Origin: an uncultured Thermogutta sp.
GTDB lineage: Bacteria; Planctomycetota; Planctomycetia; Pirellulales; Thermoguttaceae
DNA length: 64,000 nucleotides
Direction: 5' to 3'
Assembly: GCA_937128505.1 (NCBI GenBank)
Contig: CAKZMM010000084.1
Location: 1 to 64,000, forward strand
Made by a program: the position numbers and the translations under genes. Below are positions 38,448 to 59,226 of the stretch, piece by piece. Every line of letters starts with the position of its first letter. Within the stretch, counting starts at the first letter, position 1. The notes beneath the pieces were generated by a model. That model saw only the letters and a program-made list of their open reading frames with translations, ran no database searches and had not been told where the DNA came from.

Positions 38448-39815
38448 TTAGCGGCTATTTCGACGATTATTGCCGACCGGCGGGCATTCTTCTCGGTAAG
38501 CGTAATCCAGAAGTTCAATAGGGTGCATGGCAACAACGGGGGCTTTGGCCCTGCGAATTTCCCGCATGATCTGGAGGAGGCAACCGGCGTTTGAGGCCAA
38601 CACCACCTCGGCGCCGGTGGCCAAGATATTTTCCAGCTTTCGTCGTCCAAGGCGATCCGCCATCCGCGGGTGAAGTAAGTTGTAGGTGCCGGCGGAGCCA
38701 CAACAGATTTCCGATTCCGGCAATTCCCGAATTTCTAGCCCGGGAATTTGCGCAAGTAACCGTCTTGGAGCGGCCGTTATCCGCTGTGCATGAGCCAGGT
38801 GGCAAGCATCGTGATAGGTAGCCTTCAGGGGTATTCGCCCTGGTGGGGGCGGAATTCCCAAGCAATCCAAAAACTCGTTAACGTCACGGATTTTGGCGGC
38901 GAATTGCCGGCGAGCCTCTTGATGATCGTCCTTCCAGTGGTGGGGATACTCTTTCAGCATGGCTCCGCAGCCAGCGTGATTCACGACGATCGCATCGAGG
39001 CCGTCGGCGGAAAAAGCTGCCAGATTGGCGTCCGCTAGATGCCGCGCGGTTTCGGAGTCGCCAACATGAAAGTGGATAGCCCCACAGCACACCTGGTTTT
39101 CCGGGATCACTACGTCACAGCCAGCTTGCTGAAGGACCCGGGCCGTGGCCCAGTGCACCCCGCGAAAAATCCCATCCGCAACACAACCCAGGAATAATCC
39201 TACGCGAGCCTTCGGTCGCCCCTTGGCAGGCAAAAATGCCGGAAGCGGTGGAAGCGAGCGCCCAAGCTCGGGAACCAGCGACGCCATTTCCCGCAATGGC
39301 TTCGGTAGGAGCCGAAAAAGCCCGAGCCTCTCGAGAGACCAGTAGATTTTTAGTCGCTGTGCCAAGCGCACGGGAGAAAGGGCCAGGCGGATCCTTTTCC
39401 GGTACGGAAATACACCAAGCAGCACCCATCGCTGCAAAAAGCGTTGCCAAAGGCTTTCTTTTTGGGGGAGCTGATGCAAGGCGTTCCTAAACGGCTCGAT
39501 GATTCGGCCGTACGGTACGCCGGAGGGACACGCCGTTTCGCACGCCCGACAATCCAGGCAAAGCTCGAGATGGGATTTGACGCGGGCATCTGGCGCCAGG
39601 CGTCCTTCGTGCACTAACCGCATGAGGTAAATCCGCCCGCGCGGACTTTCGTTTTCGTCCCCCAATTCCGTATAGGTGGGGCATGCTGCCGTGCAAAGAC
39701 CGCAGTGAACACACTGATAGTAGATGGCGGGATCAGGTCCCCACTTGCGAATCGCCTCCTGAGCCAAATTTGAGTTGCCAGCTTCGGGGGCCATGTTCGC
39801 GAGATTCTTTTCCAT
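38448..39815 (-). CDS. glcF: Glycolate oxidase iron-sulfur subunit
   Basis: 455 aa. Two [4Fe-4S] ferredoxin motifs near the N-terminus (CVHCGLCTAACP and CLDCRACETACP) and two CCG domains (VCCGAIHFHVG and CCGSAGTYN) give the GlcF/LutA/HdrD architecture. It passes electrons from the flavin subunits to the membrane quinone pool. It is the last gene of a glcD-glcE-glcF operon on the minus strand, 44 bases after glcE. No strong ribosome site at the ATG used; a second ATG seven codons on is possible. Confidence 0.93.
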   Translation of the reverse strand: MEKNLANMAPEAGNSNLAQEAIRKWGPDPAIYYQCVHCGLCTAACPTYTELGDENESPRGRIYLMRLVHEGRLAPDARVKSHLELCLDCRACETACPSGVPYGRIIEPFRNALHQLPQKESLWQRFLQRWVLLGVFPYRKRIRLALSPVRLAQRLKIYWSLERLGLFRLLPKPLREMASLVPELGRSLPPLPAFLPAKGRPKARVGLFLGCVADGIFRGVHWATARVLQQAGCDVVIPENQVCCGAIHFHVGDSETARHLADANLAAFSADGLDAIVVNHAGCGAMLKEYPHHWKDDHQEARRQFAAKIRDVNEFLDCLGIPPPPGRIPLKATYHDACHLAHAQRITAAPRRLLAQIPGLEIRELPESEICCGSAGTYNLLHPRMADRLGRRKLENILATGAEVVLASNAGCLLQIMREIRRAKAPVVAMHPIELLDYAYREECPPVGNNRRNSR

Positions 39816-39859
39816 AATCTTTGAACAGCAATTGGTAGGTCGAAGCCAGAAGGTCCGTG

Positions 39860-41179
39860 TCAGTCGAAAATATATCGGCCGGGATTAAGTACATTTTGCG
39901 GGTCGAATTGCTCCTTAATGCGGCGGGCAATCTGGTGGGCCATCAACCGTCGCACATCGGAAGTGTTGCCGCCGGTCAGACCCCAAATAGTCGATCGTGA
40001 AAGTCGGGTTCCGGCGGGGTAATACCCCACGATCAACGATCCTGAGAGCTCTCTGGTAGCATGCCCGAACTCTTTGTCGACCCGATCTCCGAGAGCATGC
40101 TCCGGAATGCTAATCCATGCTTGCACCACACCGCTTCCTACGAGGACCAACATATTCGTTTCCGGAACGAGCTGCGAAATACGCTCTGCGTAGTTCAAAG
40201 TGTCGGTTGGCAGAAGATCCGCCCGGAGCAAGATCGGGACTTTTCCATTTCCGGAAAGCTCATCGCTCTCTCCCTCCGATCGGGCTTGATACGCCGTTGG
40301 AAAATCGGCGATAGTCTGCGCGAACTTATCGGCCACCTCATTGGAAAAACTGGCGTGCTCGCGGAGTACCTCGGCCGGAAAGCTCCGCTTCACCGCTTCC
40401 AGGGCCGCTCGAACTTCGCCCTCCCGACCTTCAAATCCGACGGCAAGCCACATCGGTGCGGAAGAGGAGAGCGAGGGAAGGTCTCCACTCTCGGCCCTCC
40501 ACCGTCTGCCTACAAGCACGGCAAGCACCGACGGCTGATACGGGGTTTCAAAAAACCTCTCGACGGCCTGCGCCGCCAACTGCAAATTGGCTATCGGAAA
40601 AACCAGAAGTTCATGGACTGGCGGCCGTGGTCGGACCATCAAAGTAACTTCAGTCACAACGCCTAAGGTCCCCAATGAGCCGATATACAGCCGATGGAGG
40701 TTATAACCTGCTGCATTCTTGACGACTCGGGCACCAGTGAAAATCCGATTCCCGCGCCCATCCACCACGCGCATCCCCAACACGTAATCCCGAAGAGTTC
40801 CGTATCGAACCTGACGGGGGCCCGGCCAATTTACCGCGATGGCTCCCCCCACGGTCGCACGACTTGGCTGGGGAATATCGACCGGCAACCGCTGATTGTT
40901 CTCCCGCAGCAAGGCGTCCAGCTCACAGATTCGCATTCCGCTCTGTACGGTGACCGTCAGGTCTTCTGCTGGGTAATCCACCAAACTTCGCAGACGGTCT
41001 AAACGAACACCATATCCCGGGCGGGTTCCCGGTGCTCCCAACGCCATGAAAGTTTGCCCACCGACAGGATAAATCGCATTCCCCTTGCCCGCCGATTCCG
41101 CTATGAAAGTTGCTAAAGAGGTCTCATCCGCAGGTTCTACAATATCGTCTATCGGAAGATACGGGCATGACTGTGCCAT
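39860..41179 (-). CDS. glcE: Glycolate oxidase FAD-binding subunit GlcE
   Basis: 439 aa from the ATG at 41179. The N-terminal half is an FAD_binding_4 domain (IYPVGGQTFMALGAPG, VDIPQPSRATVGGAIAVN, VVKNAAGYNLHRLYIGSLGT). The C-terminal part is the shorter, diverged GlcE type. It forms the GlcDEF complex that oxidises glycolate (or D-lactate) to the 2-oxo acid. The frame is open to a GTG at 41275, but that lies in a short tandem duplication and adds no conserved sequence. Second gene of the operon, 157 bases after glcD. Confidence 0.9.
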   Translation of the reverse strand: MAQSCPYLPIDDIVEPADETSLATFIAESAGKGNAIYPVGGQTFMALGAPGTRPGYGVRLDRLRSLVDYPAEDLTVTVQSGMRICELDALLRENNQRLPVDIPQPSRATVGGAIAVNWPGPRQVRYGTLRDYVLGMRVVDGRGNRIFTGARVVKNAAGYNLHRLYIGSLGTLGVVTEVTLMVRPRPPVHELLVFPIANLQLAAQAVERFFETPYQPSVLAVLVGRRWRAESGDLPSLSSSAPMWLAVGFEGREGEVRAALEAVKRSFPAEVLREHASFSNEVADKFAQTIADFPTAYQARSEGESDELSGNGKVPILLRADLLPTDTLNYAERISQLVPETNMLVLVGSGVVQAWISIPEHALGDRVDKEFGHATRELSGSLIVGYYPAGTRLSRSTIWGLTGGNTSDVRRLMAHQIARRIKEQFDPQNVLNPGRYIFD

Positions 41180-41273
41180 CACTGTCAACCTGCTGTTTGA
41201 GCCGATGCTCGGAATCGAAAATCTCTCGTTCTTCTCAGACTTTTTCGCTGCTTCAGCGCTCAATGGCTCGCAC

Positions 41274-41311
41274 AAAAATCAATGCCTCACGAAAAAATCA
41301 ATGCTCGCAAC
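41274..41311. repeat. 19-bp-period duplication between glcD and glcE
   Basis: AAAAATCAATGC occurs at 41274-41285 and 41293-41304, a 19-base offset. It lies in the 157-base glcD-glcE gap. Confidence 0.7.
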
Positions 41312-41336
41312 CAAAAATTTGAGCACGTTGATCGAT

Positions 41337-42806
41337 TCACGGTGCCCCACCGATCCGCGGATAGGTACCGAGCCATTCTAAGGACCGCTCATCGGGAACG
41401 AGCTTGCCTGGCGTCAATAATCCGTCAGGATTGAAAGCCTCCCGCAGCCGCCGCATTGCTGTCAAGTCTTCAGGCCGATATTGCTCACGCATGAGATGAA
41501 GCTTTTCCACCCCAACGCCATGTTCCGCCGTGATACTACCGCCCAGTGCGATACATTCCTCGAGCACTTGACGTCCGGCTTCGAGCACGCGGTCCACCTG
41601 TGCAGGTTCCCGCTCATCAAAGAGGAAAATCGGGTGAATGTTACCATCGCCCGCATGGGCAACATTGACAATACGGATGTTGAACTCCTGCGAGATCTTC
41701 TGAACTTTTTTCACGATTTGCGGCAGCTTTGTCCGCGGGACGACACCGTCCTGAATGCAATAACTTGGACTTAGCCGTCCGACGGCGGCCACAGCCGATT
41801 TCCGACATTTCCACAATCGTTCGCGTTCCTCAGGCGAATTGGCAAGCAGGATCTCGCGGGCATTCCAACGCTCGCATATCCGCCGAGTTATTTGCAGCTC
41901 TTCCTCAAGCGATGCTTCTTCGCCATCCAGTTCGATCACCAACACCGCCCCAACATCCAAGGGAAAGCCAAACTGGAAGGCGGCTTCCACCGCCTCGAGA
42001 ATGCCACGGTCCATCAGCTCCAAAGCGGCAGGAATTAGCCCGGCAGCGATGATTTCGCTTACCGCTTCGGTCGCATCCTCCACAGTGGGGAACGCCACAC
42101 GGAGTGTCCGTAACGCACTGGGCAGGGGCGTCAATCGTACCCAAATCTTCGTTACGATCGCTAAGGTGCCTTCGCTTCCGGTAAGGACGCCGCAGAGATC
42201 GAGCATGCCCGGATCCACGACCGGTCCATGCTGCACGATCGAACCATCCGCCAAAACTGCCTCCACGCCGAGCACATGATTCACCGTCACTCCGTACTTG
42301 AGAGTGTGCGGCCCGCCGGCATTGGTGGCGACATTACCGCCAATCGTTGAAGCCGTTTGACTCGACGGATCGGGAGCAAAATGATAGCCGCTGCCTACCA
42401 GAGCCCGGGCTAATTGCGTATTACGTACGCCCGCTTCCACAACGGCGAAACGGTTGCGCAGATCGATCTCAAGAATTCGGGTCATCCGCGTGAGCATGAT
42501 CACCAGCCCCCCGCCAAGCGGCACGCATCCACCCGCAAGGCTGGTTCCCGCTCCACGCGGTAGCATGGGGATTTTGTGCCGGTGGCAAATCCGGGCTACG
42601 GCGGCTACCTGCTGCGTATCGGACGGGAAAACGACGGCATCCGGGCGATGCTTGGCGATCGTATAGCCGTCACATTCGTAAACCATTAGATCGGATGGAT
42701 GCCACAGGACGTTTTGCTCGCCCACAACGCTGCAAAGCTCCCTGATCGCCTCAGCAGCAAGTTTCGTCGATTGGCCTTCGGTTATGCTGTCATTGATACG
42801 GGGCAT
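41337..42806 (-). CDS. glcD: Glycolate oxidase catalytic subunit GlcD
   Basis: 489 aa from the ATG at 42806 (GGAG 11 bases upstream; the frame is open to 42911). An FAD_binding_4 domain (LPRGAGTSLAGGCVPLGGGL, SSQTASTIGGNVATNAGGPH) and a FAD-oxidase C domain with the conserved AEHGVGVEK segment make this the large flavin subunit of glycolate dehydrogenase. It heads the glcDEF operon. Closely related proteins use D-lactate or 2-hydroxyglutarate, but the presence of GlcE and GlcF in order favours glycolate. Confidence 0.94.
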   Translation of the reverse strand: MPRINDSITEGQSTKLAAEAIRELCSVVGEQNVLWHPSDLMVYECDGYTIAKHRPDAVVFPSDTQQVAAVARICHRHKIPMLPRGAGTSLAGGCVPLGGGLVIMLTRMTRILEIDLRNRFAVVEAGVRNTQLARALVGSGYHFAPDPSSQTASTIGGNVATNAGGPHTLKYGVTVNHVLGVEAVLADGSIVQHGPVVDPGMLDLCGVLTGSEGTLAIVTKIWVRLTPLPSALRTLRVAFPTVEDATEAVSEIIAAGLIPAALELMDRGILEAVEAAFQFGFPLDVGAVLVIELDGEEASLEEELQITRRICERWNAREILLANSPEERERLWKCRKSAVAAVGRLSPSYCIQDGVVPRTKLPQIVKKVQKISQEFNIRIVNVAHAGDGNIHPIFLFDEREPAQVDRVLEAGRQVLEECIALGGSITAEHGVGVEKLHLMREQYRPEDLTAMRRLREAFNPDGLLTPGKLVPDERSLEWLGTYPRIGGAP

Positions 42807-43255
42807 CACGGGGCAAACTCCACACTCTGTTACGAGCTTTGACCAAAAAAGCTCTCGAAGCCCACCTGCAACCGCTGTTTGCGCCTTTCCATTCCCACCG
42901 AGCTTAGCCACCGGTGATCATACTGCTTCCCCGGCACCAAAGTACCGAGACCCAAGCACCATAGCGGCAAAATGCCGGGACACGAGTAACGGTTTTGTTC
43001 CTGAGCACCCATGTCCTGGGGTACCCACCCTTTTCTCGACTTTATTGAAACCAAGCACTCCCCGCTGACCTAAACTCAATTCGCGCTTTCCGGGAATTGA
43101 GAACGCCGATTTCGCCAACATCAATCGCCGATCGCGAATCTTTTAAAACACAAGACGGCGTACACGCAAATGAGCAACTTGCATGCCGTTCCGACCGCGG
43201 GACATTCGTACCGCGAAACGACATGCGGTCCTCAGTCGATAGTTCCGGAACTACC
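42807..43255. other. Intergenic upstream of glcD
   Basis: 449 bases between two minus-strand genes; the glcD promoter should be here. No repeat, gene or clear operator was recognised. Confidence 0.5.
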
Positions 43256-49269: not shown

Positions 49270-50607
49270 ATGTCTCCACTAGTCACGCCACAGACAATCG
49301 CAGACGCAGGGGTCGTTGGCGCAGGCGGGGCGGGGTTTCCCACCCACGTGAAACTCTCTGCCAAGGTGGATTCGGTCATCCTAAATGCCGCCGAGTGTGA
49401 GCCGCTTTTGCACAAAGACAAAGAGATTTTGCGCTATTACCCCGACGAAGTCCTTGAAGGTCTCGGGCTGGCCCGACAATTAGTCGGGGCTCAAAAGTCG
49501 TTTATCGGCATCAAAGGCAAATACGAAGAGGTGATCGAGCTCCTGGCGCCCAAGGTGGATTCGGCCACCGAACTCTGCCCGTTGACGGATAGTTATCCGG
49601 CTGGAGACGAGCTCATCTTGGTGTTCGATGTGTTGCACCGGGTAGTGCCGCCGGGGGGCATCCCCCTGGCTGTCGGGGTTGTGGTCATTAATGTGGAGAC
49701 GGCGTTAAATATCGCCAAAGCCGTTACAGAGCCGGTGGTGGAGAAATTTCTCACGATTGCCGGGGCTGTTCGCCGGCCGGTAACCTTGCGTGTGCCGATC
49801 GGGATTCGCCTCGAGGAATGCCTACAAGCCGCAGGAGGTGTGACGGGCGCGGATCCACACTTCTTTATCGGCGGAGTGATGATGGGACGAGTAACCACCG
49901 ATACGAATTTCCTCATTGACAAAACCGTGGCCGGCGTGGTTGTTCTTCCCGGAGATCACCCCCTGGTTGAGCGGGCAACACGCAATTGGAAGCAGCAGGT
50001 CCGTATCGGCCGAAGTGCGTGCGATCAATGCAGCTACTGTACGGAACTTTGTCCGCGTTGGCTGTTAGGACACCCGATCGAGCCTCATCGGGCTATGCGA
50101 AGCCTCGGCTTTAATCGCGTGGGCCAGGCAAATGTCATCGGCACGGCCTTCTGCTGCGAATGCAATCTGTGCAGCCTTTATTCGTGTCCTGAAGATCTCG
50201 ATCCCAAAGATGTGTGCGCGGAAAACAAGCGCCGTCTGGCGGCCGACAAAATACGCTGGCAGGATCCGCCGTTTGATCCTCGACGTCCCGTGCTACACCT
50301 TAACAATCGCCGAGCTCCCATGGCGCGATTGATCACGAAGTTAGGGCTTCAGAAATTCGAAAATGTGGGCCCTCTCAACGAGGATTTGCTGCAAACCAAC
50401 AAGGTGGGCATCAAATTAAAGCAGCATACCGGCCAGCCATGTCTTCCGGTCGTGCAGGAGGGGGATACCGTGCGGCGCGGGCAAATTGTGGGTCAATTAC
50501 CCAGGGACGGTGATAAGCCCGCGCTTGGCGCGATTGTTCATGCCTCAATCGACGGGAAAGTCACCCAGATTTCCGATGGGGTCATTTGGATTGAAAACCC
50601 TTACTAA
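49270..50607 (+). CDS. pduS: PduS-type (RnfC-like) iron-sulfur flavoprotein of a microcompartment
   Basis: 445 aa. The N-terminal flavin/NADH-binding region of the RnfC family (GVVGAGGAGFPTHVKLSAKV, then NAAECEPLLHKDKE) is followed by an SLBB segment (~170-205), two [4Fe-4S] sites (CDQCSYCTELCP and CCECNLCSLYSCP) and a C-terminal barrel-sandwich domain (~385-440, VQEGDTVRRGQIVGQLP). This is PduS, which in propanediol-using bacteria reduces cobalamin and/or moves electrons across the microcompartment shell in partnership with the shell protein PduT. A pduT homologue lies 525 bases downstream on the same strand. No other microcompartment gene is in the window. Confidence 0.9.
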   Translation: MSPLVTPQTIADAGVVGAGGAGFPTHVKLSAKVDSVILNAAECEPLLHKDKEILRYYPDEVLEGLGLARQLVGAQKSFIGIKGKYEEVIELLAPKVDSATELCPLTDSYPAGDELILVFDVLHRVVPPGGIPLAVGVVVINVETALNIAKAVTEPVVEKFLTIAGAVRRPVTLRVPIGIRLEECLQAAGGVTGADPHFFIGGVMMGRVTTDTNFLIDKTVAGVVVLPGDHPLVERATRNWKQQVRIGRSACDQCSYCTELCPRWLLGHPIEPHRAMRSLGFNRVGQANVIGTAFCCECNLCSLYSCPEDLDPKDVCAENKRRLAADKIRWQDPPFDPRRPVLHLNNRRAPMARLITKLGLQKFENVGPLNEDLLQTNKVGIKLKQHTGQPCLPVVQEGDTVRRGQIVGQLPRDGDKPALGAIVHASIDGKVTQISDGVIWIENPY

Positions 50608-51132
50608 GCGGCCAAAAAACCACGGGCTTTTAAAGGCCTGGCGTTGTACCTAGAGCTTTTGGAGTGTGGCTCAGGTAATCACGGCGGCTAGCGAAAGAAG
50701 CCCCAAATGACCGAAATTTACTAGATGCCAACATTTGCGAGACGGGAACTATTAACTGAAGGAGGTCGCAACGAAACTTCGAGCTTAGACTGGGGAAGCC
50801 TAAGTCGCGCCATTTAGGTAGTAAAAGCAAAGCTGTACCCTAGCTGGTTCAATGGAGCCATTTAGATAAAAATAGTGATATTAGGGCCTTTGCGGTGGAT
50901 TTATTCTAGGAACGGTTGTTGATGGTTTGGCGGCCACAATTTCCGCCGTGGAGCGCGACGCAAACTCAGCGAGCCGCGAATAAATCAGTATCTCTAGTTC
51001 AAGGATAAAAAAGCTAAACAAACTATAGCTTACGGTCTTTGTGCTAGGCCATCGAGTGTCCGGGTGAATCGGCCGGTTTGTACGACACCAGGGTTAGAAA
51101 GGCCCTTCGAGGCCTGTATGGAGAGTATCGAA
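50608..51132. other. Intergenic between pduS and pduT
   Basis: 525 bases without a gene. The long gap argues against simple translational coupling of the pair. A GGAGAG ribosome site at 51120-51125 serves the next gene. Confidence 0.55.
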
Positions 51133-51693
51133 ATGCCGGCGGCACGGTCGGTCGGAGCTATCGAGCTTTCGAGTATCGGAATCGGATTTCAGGTGCAGGA
51201 CGAGATGCTGAAGGCAGCTTCCGTGGAGCTGCTGGTAGCCCGAACAATCTGCTCGGGAAAATACCTCATAGTCGTCGGCGGATCCGTGAGCGACGTAGAG
51301 ACGGCGGTGCGAACTGCGGTTGGCCAAGCTGAGCATTCCATCATCGATCATTTGGTTTGTAACAATGTGCATGAATCGGTGTTCCCGGCCTTAGGGCAAT
51401 CGGTCAGCCTGCCGGGGAATCATGTGGGGGCCCTCGGAATCATTGAGACCTTCAGCGGGGTAAGCGCTCTAGCGGCAGCAGATGTGGCGGCGAAAGCCGC
51501 ACGTGTCATCCTATTTCGGATCCATCTTGCGATGGCTTTGGGAGGAAAGGGATTGGTGCTTTTGACTGGCAGCGTCGCCGATGCGCGGGCGGCTGTCCAA
51601 GCTGGGGCGGATGAGGTCCGGCGACGCGGACTTTTGGTTTCGGAGGTGGTTATCCCCCGTCCAAGTCGTGAACTTTTTGAAGAGTATCTGTAA
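51133..51693 (+). CDS. pduT: BMC-T (tandem-domain) microcompartment shell protein, PduT-like
   Basis: 186 aa with two BMC domains (~6-90 and ~98-180): SVGAIELSSIGIGFQVQDEM at the start of the first, HVGALGIIETFSGVSALAAA at the start of the second, and a PRPSRELFEEYL tail. It forms pseudohexameric trimers in the shell. The Cys in ARTICSGKYL (C40) matches the pore cysteine of PduT that ligates a [4Fe-4S] cluster at the trimer axis. The start at 51133 is chosen for GGAGAG seven bases upstream and for the family length (about 184 aa). Earlier in-frame starts are a GTG at 51064 and an ATG at 51118. Partner of PduS. Confidence 0.92.
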   Translation: MPAARSVGAIELSSIGIGFQVQDEMLKAASVELLVARTICSGKYLIVVGGSVSDVETAVRTAVGQAEHSIIDHLVCNNVHESVFPALGQSVSLPGNHVGALGIIETFSGVSALAAADVAAKAARVILFRIHLAMALGGKGLVLLTGSVADARAAVQAGADEVRRRGLLVSEVVIPRPSRELFEEYL

Positions 51694-54778: not shown

Positions 54779-56671
54779 TTATCTCACGTACCGCATTCGC
54801 CAAAAGTTCGGGAAGAAACGAATGGGAATATTCGTCCCAGGAATTCGATCTAGTGACCGGGGCCAATAAATAAACAGAGCCCTTCCGATGAGGAGCTCGC
54901 GTTTCACGTAATACTCAAAATTGCGTCCCTCCCAAAGGCGACTATCCATGCTCTCCGGACTGTTATCGCCGAGGACTAGAAACTGATCTTTGTCTAACGG
55001 AAACCATACCACCCGCGTTCGAGCAGCACCGTAGGAATGACAGTCGGATAACACCCGGGTTACCGTTTCGCCCGTAAGCGGTGTGTACGGAGAGACCACG
55101 AAATCGTCGATCATCTGCTGTGAGGATATTCCTCCGTTCGCACGATAAGCGATGTAATAGATGTCGCGATAAACCCGCAGATGCCGCACGGTAACCTCGG
55201 TACCACGGGCTCCTATCCGAACCGGTTCGCGGTCGCGGAGTGTCGGTTTGGCGTTATCCATGGGTGAATATTCGCCCGTGGTTTCAAACGACATTGGCTT
55301 ACCATTTACCCATAAATAGAGGCAATCGTCCACATTGGCGAACATTACCCAAAATTTGCCCTTTCTTTTTATGGGAGTGGATGTTAGGGCACGGAACTCC
55401 GGCAACGCGTCGATGGAGGCTACCGCCTGCCCACTTTCGAGGTTTAGATTGCACTGAAAGAGCCTTCCCCCTTCCACAAGCTCCAGCAAAAGGTTCCCCC
55501 GCGGAGTCACCACTTCCACCTGAAATTCCACCGCAAGATCACCTACCCAATGCAGCCCGAGCTGCTTCGGCGTGGGGCGCAGCGGATCGTAAGACCAACC
55601 TGGATAGGACGAATAAGCCAACGGCCCCCAGCTTTCGCTGCTAGGAAACCAACCTCCGCCACCTTGCGAGACTTCGCTATTATAGCTGCAAAAATCGCTG
55701 ATTAATTGCGGCTGAAGCGACGCGATTCCCTGACCTTTTCCGTGCAACAGCCGCTGCCACTCGTCGTAACTAGGAACAAGATGCCGATACCGGAGCCAAG
55801 CCACTTCTCCTGATTCTGGCGACGCGATGGAAAAGCTCCGATAGTCTTCCGACACCGACCAACCTCTTCCCGACTGGGTAGGCTCGGAAACCCAACGGGG
55901 TGGCCAACCCTTTTCGATCCAGGATCGCTGCGTTCGATCATTGTCGTAAACCAGTTGAAGCATTGCCCGCACTTTCTCGGGGGGCTTGCGCAGAATCCTA
56001 AATTCCTCAAGGTTTAGCACGTAAGTACTGTGAAAATCCTCCGGCACCGCAGGTCTCGCGAATAAATCTCCGTTGCGAATCATGATGGTTTCGCCGGGCA
56101 GACCCACAATTCGTTTGATGAAATTTGTTTTTGCTCCTCCCGGATACTTAAAGACGGCGACGTCCCAGCGTTGGGGTTCGCCGAACTGATACGGAAATTT
56201 GACCACAAGGATGCGATCGCCCTTATAGGAGGGGTATTCCCTCCCCTGAGGATTCCCCGCCCCAACATGCATCGAATAACGACACACGGGACATGTACCG
56301 CCGATCACTTGGCGCCCGGTGAAGCGACCGGTTTCGCTATCCACTTCATCGCTCGCACTGACTTGAAATTGATGCCCGCATTGGGCGCACGTCAGGTCTT
56401 TGTGCCTTCCCAGCAGCGTCGGAGCCATTGACCCGGTGGGGATTACAAATGCCTCAGCCTCGAAAGTGCGAAACAAAAAGGCAAGCATAAAGGCGATGGC
56501 AATCGATTCCACAATTTCACGGATCGCCGCTAAAGAGAGAAATCCTCCGTGCGCGCTTCCTTCCCTGGAACTCACCTCTGAAGTAGTACTCTTAGTGCGG
56601 GACGAAGACTGGCGAACCTGCTTGCCACTGGTAGATATGGCGGTTTGCTTGAGGGGGCGTTTTGTGCTCAT
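54779..56671 (-). CDS. lepB: Type I signal peptidase, giant planctomycete form 1
   Basis: 630 aa, more than twice the usual size. After a disordered N-terminus and one transmembrane helix (~48-68), the catalytic Ser lies in PTGSMAPTLLG (S81) and the catalytic Lys in FIKRIVGLPGE (K186). Between them sits a zinc ribbon (C95-x2-C98, C127-x2-C130). After box D there is a ~380-residue insert, whose latter part (~370-520) looks like a LamG/concanavalin-like beta-sandwich (YLWVNGKPMSF, VRIGARGTEVTVRHLRVY). Box E (LGDNSPESMDSR, from 567) closes the fold. All catalytic boxes are present, so it should cleave signal peptides at the outer face of the inner membrane. A second, diverged copy lies just upstream. 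Confidence 0.92.
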   Translation of the reverse strand: MSTKRPLKQTAISTSGKQVRQSSSRTKSTTSEVSSREGSAHGGFLSLAAIREIVESIAIAFMLAFLFRTFEAEAFVIPTGSMAPTLLGRHKDLTCAQCGHQFQVSASDEVDSETGRFTGRQVIGGTCPVCRYSMHVGAGNPQGREYPSYKGDRILVVKFPYQFGEPQRWDVAVFKYPGGAKTNFIKRIVGLPGETIMIRNGDLFARPAVPEDFHSTYVLNLEEFRILRKPPEKVRAMLQLVYDNDRTQRSWIEKGWPPRWVSEPTQSGRGWSVSEDYRSFSIASPESGEVAWLRYRHLVPSYDEWQRLLHGKGQGIASLQPQLISDFCSYNSEVSQGGGGWFPSSESWGPLAYSSYPGWSYDPLRPTPKQLGLHWVGDLAVEFQVEVVTPRGNLLLELVEGGRLFQCNLNLESGQAVASIDALPEFRALTSTPIKRKGKFWVMFANVDDCLYLWVNGKPMSFETTGEYSPMDNAKPTLRDREPVRIGARGTEVTVRHLRVYRDIYYIAYRANGGISSQQMIDDFVVSPYTPLTGETVTRVLSDCHSYGAARTRVVWFPLDKDQFLVLGDNSPESMDSRLWEGRNFEYYVKRELLIGRALFIYWPRSLDRIPGTNIPIRFFPNFWRMRYVR

Positions 56672-57195
56672 ACGTTGACCGCAAAGGGTACCCTTTACCT
56701 ATTTGCTTATATTTGCGCCTACATGGAAACAACAATTATCCGAAATTCCTTCCGCAAGCGGGGTGCCTTTCGGCTCAAGATTCTCCCAAGCATCCTCGAA
56801 GGGCATTTCGCACCCTCTTTCGGGAAGATCGCGCTTTCGGGAAGATTGTGACGACGTCCCGGAGGCGCAGCTCCGCATATAGAAGTCTTGCCAAACGATG
56901 ATCTATCAACTCCGCAACCCGTTCCATTCATCTCATCGATCTGTCCGTATCCGATCATTCGTCTCTTCGCATCCGAAGTCAGTCACAACCGGCTGCTGCT
57001 AAAACAATCCGTTTTCACACCGATTCCCGGTTATGGGCGGCAATCCAAGCCGCCGAGATCCCCGCGATATTTGGCCTATCAGGAGACACAATAAAGCGGG
57101 GGGATTCGGGGCACATTAAAAACCGCTCTCCGAATTGGTTCAAAACGATACTCTGTTTCTTGTGAACTTGTGTGATGCTACCAAAAAACGTGATG
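56672..57195. other. Intergenic between the two signal peptidase genes
   Basis: 524 bases. No gene. Contains a 17-bp duplication (56817-56850) and, at its right end, an 18-bp duplication that runs into the upstream gene's stop codon (57172-57207). Confidence 0.55.
56817..56850. repeat. 17-bp tandem duplication
   Basis: CTTTCGGGAAGATCGCG is followed at once by a near copy beginning CTTTCGGGAAGATTG. Noncoding. Confidence 0.8.
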
Positions 57196-57207
57196 CTACC
57201 AAATATA
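57172..57207. repeat. 18-bp tandem duplication across a stop codon
   Basis: GTGATGCTACCAAAAAAC (57172-57189) and GTGATGCTACCAAATATA (57190-57207). The second copy contains the last codons and TAG stop (57196-57198, minus) of the signal peptidase 2 gene; the first lies just downstream of it. Confidence 0.85.
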
Positions 57208-59226
57208 TTGAACGGCCCAAAAATCCGGTACCCGATAAATGCGATTAAGAATGCTTAGGGGGCGGTAAGGAATCCGCAAGACCACAAGGCCAACGAACGA
57301 CGATTCGTGTGTAGCCCGGTAGGGCCCAAAGATCCGGCTATCCTCTGAGATCAACGAGTTGTCCCCAAGCAGAGCGTATTCCGTACCACCAAGGAATACC
57401 TCCGGAGTACTGAGGAAATCTTCCCTACCGATTCGCCTATCATCGTAAGCATTGAAGCATTCAAATCTTAGCTTCGCCCGAGAACAAACTGCCTCGTCCG
57501 AGACCGTGGAGCGTGAATCATTTGGCGTCGCTCCTATGGTGTACGTTCCTGACCCGGTGTCTGCCGTCAGGTTCTGGGCACGTTCATCGGGAACGAACGA
57601 TTTTGGATTCCCCTGTGATGGCTGCAAAAAGCCAGCTGACTGTAATAAGCCCGGCAAGTAATACAAATCTTTCCGAAGCTCAAGCGAGTATATGCTGATT
57701 TCGATATCCGAAGCACCTAACGCTACAGGGAAACGATCACCAAAAAACCTATGTGAACTCTCAACGTTTAAGTTTATTTTCGCGATTGAATTTCCGCCAT
57801 ATTCGGCCACAAACGTTCCATCAACCATTCCAATAGTGATCATTACTGGTAAGAGAAGCCGGGGCAGCTTGCCTCGAGCCACTAATCGCCATATCCCGCC
57901 TCCTTTGCCGTTGAAATCTCCCCAATCTTTTTCTTTTCTCAGATCACGCATTTTTTGGGGGATCGACAATTTCTCATCTTCTACGGCAACCAATGGGCTG
58001 TCGGCCGTGCCCGCCAGCGGTGGAATCTCGCCCTTGGCACGAGGTCGCCGGTTCAAGCTTACTCCGGATTCAGGGTTGCTAACTTCCAATTCGGGGCTTG
58101 CACCCGGCGGTTGCCCCCCGCGCGGGTCCCTTGCATCGGAAGATGCTTCGCCATTATGGCGAACTTGCGAAGAGCTTCGTAAAAGCTTGTCTTGATCGGC
58201 GGCTGGATCCGCGGAAAACCGTCCGTCTACCTTCCACCCTAGCTCCCGGCACCCGTAGTCCTCCTTTCCGGCGTTTGATACTCGTTCCGGACCCTGCATG
58301 TGCCACAAATAGAACTCTTGGGACTGAATTCTCAGCTCTAACCGGACCGCACCATTCGGATGATTTGTCAACACGTGTAAGGTCCCAGCCCCTCTGACTT
58401 TCTGCACAGAAAACCTGAGCAAAAGATCGTGGACCGGAAAAACAAGTTCACTACGAATTAAATACAGTTGATTTTCGGGAAGCTGATTGGTGATTCCCCC
58501 CCAATCCGTTCCGGTTTCCATATTCTCTCCGGCGCAAGTCACGGTAGCCCCCCACACGAGCGTTGAGTCGAACCGCACCCACGAGATCCCCCCGTCAAAT
58601 TGCGGGACGAATACCAAACTTCCGTTTTGTATCTGCCAGCGGTTCCGCGATCCAACCTCACGCCAGGGAACTCTCGGCAAGTCGACCTTATTGCCTGAGT
58701 TTATCGCGAGGCTTAAAGATGGCATTCGGTACACAGGAACCGCCATTTCCCAAGCCTGGGCCAGATCTCGAGCTGCGGGCCGACCGTTAACCCAAATGTC
58801 TCCGCCGCGAATAGAGAAACCTTCCCCGGGGAAGGCAATAACTCGCTTTGTTGCCAGGCCCAGCGAGGTATCCGGATGGCGAAAGGCCACAATGTCCCAT
58901 CGCTTCATAGGAAACCACCCGGCTATGCCCCGGAAGACAAGCACACGATCTCCCGGCAAAACCGGCGTCTCAGGAGAGAGAGTTAAAACCGCGCAACACC
59001 CTGGACACCGGACTTTGGTCCCAGCACTTTTCGGGTGGACAAGAACGCGGAGCACAGCTCCACACTCGCACCTCATCCAAAAATGAGGTCCCAACAAAGT
59101 GGGGGCCATTGAGCCCGAATTCACAAAAATGGGAAAAAAGACTCCCGCCAGGCACCAGGTGTCCACGACAAGCAGCGCGGCGGTGTATAAGATAAGAGTT
59201 TGAAAGAAGGCCAAAACTCGTTTCAT
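57196..59226 (-). CDS. lepB: Type I signal peptidase, giant planctomycete form 2
   Basis: 676 aa. One N-terminal transmembrane helix (~8-34), the catalytic Ser in VNSGSMAPTLLG (S39) and Lys in ATKRVIAFPGE (K127), with a zinc-ribbon-like insert between them (C53-x-C55, C74-x2-C77). A ~480-residue insert follows, with a disordered central stretch and a beta-rich part, before box E (LGDNSLISEDSR, from 620). Catalytic residues are intact. Same architecture as form 1 but strongly diverged, so either an old duplication or two long-standing paralogues with different clients. Located between nifS and form 1, all on the minus strand. Confidence 0.9.
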   Translation of the reverse strand: MKRVLAFFQTLILYTAALLVVDTWCLAGVFFPIFVNSGSMAPTLLGPHFWMRCECGAVLRVLVHPKSAGTKVRCPGCCAVLTLSPETPVLPGDRVLVFRGIAGWFPMKRWDIVAFRHPDTSLGLATKRVIAFPGEGFSIRGGDIWVNGRPAARDLAQAWEMAVPVYRMPSLSLAINSGNKVDLPRVPWREVGSRNRWQIQNGSLVFVPQFDGGISWVRFDSTLVWGATVTCAGENMETGTDWGGITNQLPENQLYLIRSELVFPVHDLLLRFSVQKVRGAGTLHVLTNHPNGAVRLELRIQSQEFYLWHMQGPERVSNAGKEDYGCRELGWKVDGRFSADPAADQDKLLRSSSQVRHNGEASSDARDPRGGQPPGASPELEVSNPESGVSLNRRPRAKGEIPPLAGTADSPLVAVEDEKLSIPQKMRDLRKEKDWGDFNGKGGGIWRLVARGKLPRLLLPVMITIGMVDGTFVAEYGGNSIAKINLNVESSHRFFGDRFPVALGASDIEISIYSLELRKDLYYLPGLLQSAGFLQPSQGNPKSFVPDERAQNLTADTGSGTYTIGATPNDSRSTVSDEAVCSRAKLRFECFNAYDDRRIGREDFLSTPEVFLGGTEYALLGDNSLISEDSRIFGPYRATHESSFVGLVVLRIPYRPLSILNRIYRVPDFWAVQYIW

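Follow-up and report, generated by a model that had tools for sequence, protein, structure and literature searches.

What does a PduS-PduT pair do in a planctomycete genome when no microcompartment gene lies beside it? The window, the whole 64,000-nucleotide stretch of DNA from an uncultured Thermogutta sp. that was analysed here, carries such a pair. The first-pass annotation had described it as an RnfC-like PduS with two [4Fe-4S] motifs and, 525 bases on, a tandem shell (BMC) protein with a pore cysteine; the two, it suggested, may serve a shell encoded elsewhere or a redox assembly of their own. The locus has the following features.

49270 to 50607, forward strand: pduS-like gene, 445 aa, recognised by its Pfam domains; orthologues in family genomes are 65-68% identical.
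49309 to 49341, forward strand: glycine-rich segment GVVGAGGAGFP, with the GxGxxG pattern of the proposed NADH-binding motif of PduS (PMC2982820).
50020 to 50052, forward strand: first [4Fe-4S] motif, CxxCxxCxxxC, CDQCSYCTELCP, from sequence and alignment.
50152 to 50187, forward strand: second [4Fe-4S] motif, CxxCxxCxxxxC, CCECNLCSLYSCP, from sequence and alignment.
50608 to 51132, forward strand: pduS-pduT spacer, unusually long at 525 nt when counted to the ATG at 51133.
51064 to 51693, forward strand: pduT-like gene for a tandem BMC (BMC-T) shell protein (Pfam; PDB 3pac), its likely true start being the ATG at 51133.
51250 to 51252, forward strand: codon of Cys63, the invariant pore cysteine in TICSGKY, aligned to the 3pac cysteine.

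The first open reading frame has the four-domain Pfam architecture given for PduS (PMC6325248), namely Complex1_51K (1.1e-41), SLBB, Fer4_17 and RnfC_N. The GAGGAGFP segment is kept in 15 of 15 aligned PduS proteins, and the cysteine spacing of both motifs equals that reported for Citrobacter PduS (PMC2982820). The top NCBIfam model is rnfC, with a score under its cut-off; in the PDB the protein matches RnfC best and NuoF-like chains next. By its domains and motifs the protein is a predicted NADH/FMN protein with two [4Fe-4S] clusters, and the original description of it holds.

The second open reading frame contains two BMC domains (8.5e-39, Pfam), and its closest solved relatives in the PDB are PduT structures (3pac at 2.5e-38). 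It scores 112 bits against the 250-bit cut-off of the NCBIfam eut_PduT equivalog, and is best described from its sequence as a PduT-like BMC-T protein rather than as a curated eut_PduT equivalog. Conservation begins at about residue 27 of the reading frame, so translation probably starts at ATG 51133, and with that start the 525-base distance to pduS is correct. It is the longest such spacer among the family-type pairs compared: the remaining 11 range from 22 to 359 nt, and the same-genus genome has 177 nt; scans of the region returned no Rfam match and no sigma-70-like promoter. A pore cysteine that varied among orthologues had been named as grounds for abandoning the first-pass reading. Instead Cys63, which precedes G-K-Y/F, does not vary among the 15 pair-type PduT proteins that were aligned, and is expected to be a ligand of a [4Fe-4S] cluster at the trimer axis.

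The isolation of the pair is real. No further BMC gene occurs in the window, no other microcompartment gene lies nearby, and the genome's PF00936/PF03319 matches outside PduT are all on another contig, C83. The pair is flanked by a thioredoxin-TPR protein, a PfkB kinase, an ABC ATPase and two signal-peptidase-like proteins, none of which stays beside it in relatives, with the exception of the PfkB-type kinase, which is common to one other genome (G043).

Whole-genome searches with the BMC and BMC-P models placed two BMC-H and three BMC-P genes on C83, in the order DeoR, PduL, BMC-H, BMC-H, AckA, BMC-P, AldDH, BMC-P, unknown, BMC-P, class II aldolase. With class II aldolase, aldehyde dehydrogenase, PduL, AckA and DeoR present alongside the five shell genes, where AckA and DeoR were assigned from sequence rather than Pfam, the locus reads as a complete fucose/rhamnose-type (PVM) microcompartment locus. 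The genome search proposed at the outset is thereby answered: BMC-H, BMC-P, aldolase and aldehyde dehydrogenase genes are all on C83, and no second pduS or pduT was found in the genome. The C83 gene set is that of the Planctomycetes/Verrucomicrobia PVM (PMC4207490) in the order found across the class, but it lacks a terminal Ldh_1 gene, and the genome encodes its BMC-T protein and PduS outside this locus. Between two of its BMC-P genes is a 291-aa protein (L008 7145-8020, reverse strand) with no Pfam match and 24-42% identity across the class. Its N-terminus, MTDPLVEQIVREVMARLSG, looks like an encapsulation peptide and is similar to the one on PduL from the same locus.

An incomplete shell set in a genome that also holds a main BMC locus is the arrangement of satellite BMC loci, in which a shell gene lies distal, alone or with an enzyme gene, to a full main locus (PMC4207490; PMC8217296). 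Because PduS accompanies PduT, the pair is "satellite-like" in the 2014 wording (PMC4207490); it is a "satellite" in that of 2021 (PMC8217296). The satellites named in the main texts of these two papers are CcmK3/K4, EUT modules and AldDH, with no PduS-PduT satellite among them, and no description of one was found in the main texts of the papers searched. A paper on Thermogutta terrifontis (PMC5673643) does not mention microcompartments, rhamnose or fucose.

The arrangement is not particular to this genome. In a survey of 398 genomes of the class, adjacent PduT-like and PduS-like genes occur throughout the window's family (f1, 10 of 10 genomes), in G116 (f18) and in G361 (f2). The family is inferred to be Thermoguttaceae because two named MAGs outside the ten carry close orthologues of the pair: one is a Thermoguttaceae bacterium and the other is labelled Blastopirellula marina. 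A PVM locus was also seen in the additional genome G707. The G116 genome is flagged for 6% contamination and its pair nests inside f1 in the tree; this pair may be a contaminant. Each of the ten family genomes holds the pair, three BMC-P genes and a PVM locus, which supports the suggestion that the pair may serve a shell encoded elsewhere. In nine of the ten the two loci are on different contigs or far apart on a single one, as in G011, with the pair at 3.35 Mb and the PVM locus at 1.32 Mb. Among close relatives the pair is never inside a full operon. It comes nearest in G391, where the PVM locus follows 2.8 kb downstream of the pair, on one strand with it and beyond an unrelated gene; a rough estimate puts the probability of meeting such proximity by chance once among ten genomes at about 1%. 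A comparison of sequences upstream of pduS and of the PVM operon in the 10 genomes gave no shared element convincingly beyond shuffles.

Planctomycete PVM loci are normally without PduS and PduT, which could be taken to mean that a Pdu or GRM operon has decayed or was split recently, leaving the pair as a remnant with no present function. Both genes are intact in all 10 family genomes, such that the pair in the window is not a chance occurrence, and in 12 family-type genomes altogether, with an invariant pore cysteine and invariant Fe-S motifs. Between same-genus genomes dN is low, at 0.11 for PduT and 0.30 for PduS, and dS is saturated, and the free-standing PduTs form one old clade. The remnant explanation is already disfavoured, with what appears to be strong purifying selection across the family counting against it, and is very improbable indeed. 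That the pair had merely been split from an operon was also considered and rejected, both on the locations of the two loci in nine of ten family genomes (different contigs or 2 Mb apart) and on the single clade of free-standing PduTs. The pair is a conserved satellite module, and the PVM locus of the family has no Ldh_1 gene; both points go beyond the first-pass annotation.

Beyond the class, a phylum survey found a PduT-like match in 62 of 334 genomes. Of the matches inspected, many are embedded in other BMC loci, where pduS is mostly absent, and free-standing pairs were found in the planctomycete families f78, f52 and f54 and in one Ignavibacteriales genome. In a maximum-likelihood tree a single branch sets off the free-standing PduTs (95/72 support; recovered in 96% of bootstrap trees), consistent with a single clade apart from the PduTs encoded inside BMC loci. 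The f52 genomes have a second PduT that is embedded in a BMC locus. Two PduTs each, one free-standing with pduS and one in a BMC locus, are encoded in G670 (L122/L144) and G648 (L121/L145), both of which have an additional second aldolase/BMC-P-triplet locus. A BMC-T protein in G323 (L062 9617-10519, reverse strand), within a BMC locus of its own and 36% identical, was not counted as a pair member because the pore cysteine is absent (TVQPGKY); the Ldh_1 search gave not even a weak match in G323.

The alternative raised at the start, a redox assembly of its own, would make PduT trimers and PduS a shell-free cytosolic or membrane-associated complex related to RnfC. The homology of PduS to RnfC and the free-standing position of the pair, with BMC neighbours absent, are compatible with such a complex, as is G613 (L125), in which the pair is present and no BMC-P match was detected. 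This genome is just 83% complete, and either contigs are missing or its pair has no shell; BMC-P genes were found in all the remaining pair-bearing genomes that were searched. A shell-free complex is highly improbable, and the idea otherwise found no support.

In most PVM loci inspected outside f1 in the class, the aldolase gene is followed by one for an Ldh_1 protein of about 313 aa (PF00056/PF02866), the predicted NAD+ regenerator (PMC4207490). No such lactate/malate dehydrogenase gene is present in any of the 10 f1 PVM loci, that on C83 included. Using one of these proteins as the query, a genome-wide search gave a bimodal distribution in which orthologues were taken at E <= ~1e-65 (1e-65 to 1e-205). 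No orthologue was found elsewhere in the f1 genomes, only weaker matches (E 1e-38 to 1e-55), one each in nine genomes and two in G225, which are taken to be ordinary malate dehydrogenases.

Counted from the survey tables, 324 genomes of the class are BMC-P-positive, 291 with an Ldh_1 orthologue and 33 without. The pair is present in 10 of the 33 compared with 2 of the 291, the two being G361 and G116. The Fisher value for this association, 1.7e-9 uncollapsed, is inflated by kinship because all ten pair-bearing genomes without Ldh_1 belong to f1; when f1 is counted as a single lineage, significance is lost (p = 0.21). The 23 BMC-P-positive genomes with neither the pair nor an Ldh_1 orthologue indicate that the pair is not an obligatory replacement; G083, G095, G389, G175 and G281 are among them. 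Outside the class, both f78 genomes (G584, G604) have a free-standing pair and a PVM locus without Ldh_1, and no orthologue elsewhere in the genome. The f1 combination thus recurs in a second family, where it may have been gained independently and where the absence of Ldh_1 could be ancestral.

The pair probably serves the PVM shell in some way. The fuller proposal, that it acts as a redox satellite of the PVM organelle, oxidising luminal NADH and exporting electrons via PduT in place of an internal dehydrogenase, stands at about an even chance. PduT trimers with a [4Fe-4S] cluster at the axis would be built into the PVM shell, and PduS would dock on the inner face of PduT. NADH produced by the encapsulated aldehyde dehydrogenase would reduce the FMN of PduS and then its two [4Fe-4S] clusters, from which electrons would pass to the PduT cluster and on to a cytoplasmic acceptor, and NAD+ would be regenerated inside the organelle in lineages whose PVM locus has no Ldh_1 dehydrogenase. 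The chemistry is modelled on Citrobacter PduS, a PduT-binding protein that contains FMN and two [4Fe-4S] centres and is reduced by NADH, and for which electron exit from the lumen via PduS and PduT has been a proposal (PMC2982820; PMC6325248).

A second possibility is that the pair is an accessory of the PVM shell in which electrons flow inward or which has some other task, such as reducing a luminal protein, oxygen protection or sensing, and that the loss of Ldh_1 in the same clade is coincidental. The association comes mainly from one clade plus f78, other PVM loci without Ldh_1 do without the pair, and G361 keeps both, all of which fit this explanation. However, the published midpoint potentials (PduS FMN, -150 to -262 mV; PduT cluster, +99 mV; PMC2982820; PMC6325248) favour outward flow from NADH, and the combination of pair and missing Ldh_1 recurs in f78; inward flow or another task is rather unlikely.

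The classical role of PduS, as a cobalamin reductase for a B12-dependent diol dehydratase, draws on the corrin reductase activity of Citrobacter PduS (PMC2982820). The diol dehydratase large subunit is likely absent from the 16 pair-bearing genomes, which gave no PF02286 match in a search run without a positive control, and PduS also occurs in B12-independent GRM loci (PMC6325248); a cobalamin reductase is a highly improbable explanation for the pair.

The Pdu pair of Citrobacter and Salmonella (PMC2982820) shares the domain set, the two Fe-S motifs and the PduT pore cysteine; it differs in that the pair described here is outside any BMC locus, its PduT falls below the eut_PduT cut-off, the likely partner organelle is of PVM type, and no diol dehydratase was detected by the search without positive control. 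The GRM1b, GRM3 and GRM5 loci (PMC6325248) have, as here, tandem pduS-pduT and a conserved C-P/S/A-G-K pore motif, together with B12 independence, which is likely here too, and GRM5 also degrades fucose and rhamnose with a class II aldolase, like PVM. In GRM systems pduS and pduT share the main locus with the gene for a glycyl radical enzyme, whereas here the pair is unlinked and the PVM locus contains no such enzyme.

As a more tentative extension of the satellite-module proposal, a mobile two-gene electron outlet may have taken over from the dehydrogenase that recycles NAD+ inside the PVM organelle, perhaps on two occasions (f1 and f78). If this were the case, a closed cofactor loop would have become an organelle that exports reducing power through its shell, and the free-standing PduS-PduT would be an interchangeable part adopted by different microcompartments. 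The genes for a shell's redox port can evidently stand apart from those of the organelle, and may be exchanged independently of them. Electron transfer across the shell by PduS and PduT, a proposal dating from 2010, is still described as an open question (PMC2982820; PMC6325248); an entire family that has the pair, lacks the dehydrogenase presumed to recycle NAD+ internally and gave no match to a B12-dependent dehydratase is a natural experiment on this transfer.

Two other groups of genes in the window were noted. About 6.4 kb from the pair is a GlcDEF-like cluster (38448-42911, reverse strand) composed of a FAD-oxidase_C/FAD_binding_4 protein, a second FAD_binding_4 protein and a CCG/4Fe-4S protein, which by its domains would be a glycolate or D-lactate oxidase and which is not beside the pair in relatives. 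At 54779-59226 (reverse strand), two successive large proteins of 630 and 676 aa each have a Peptidase_S26 (signal-peptidase) domain embedded in a far longer chain.
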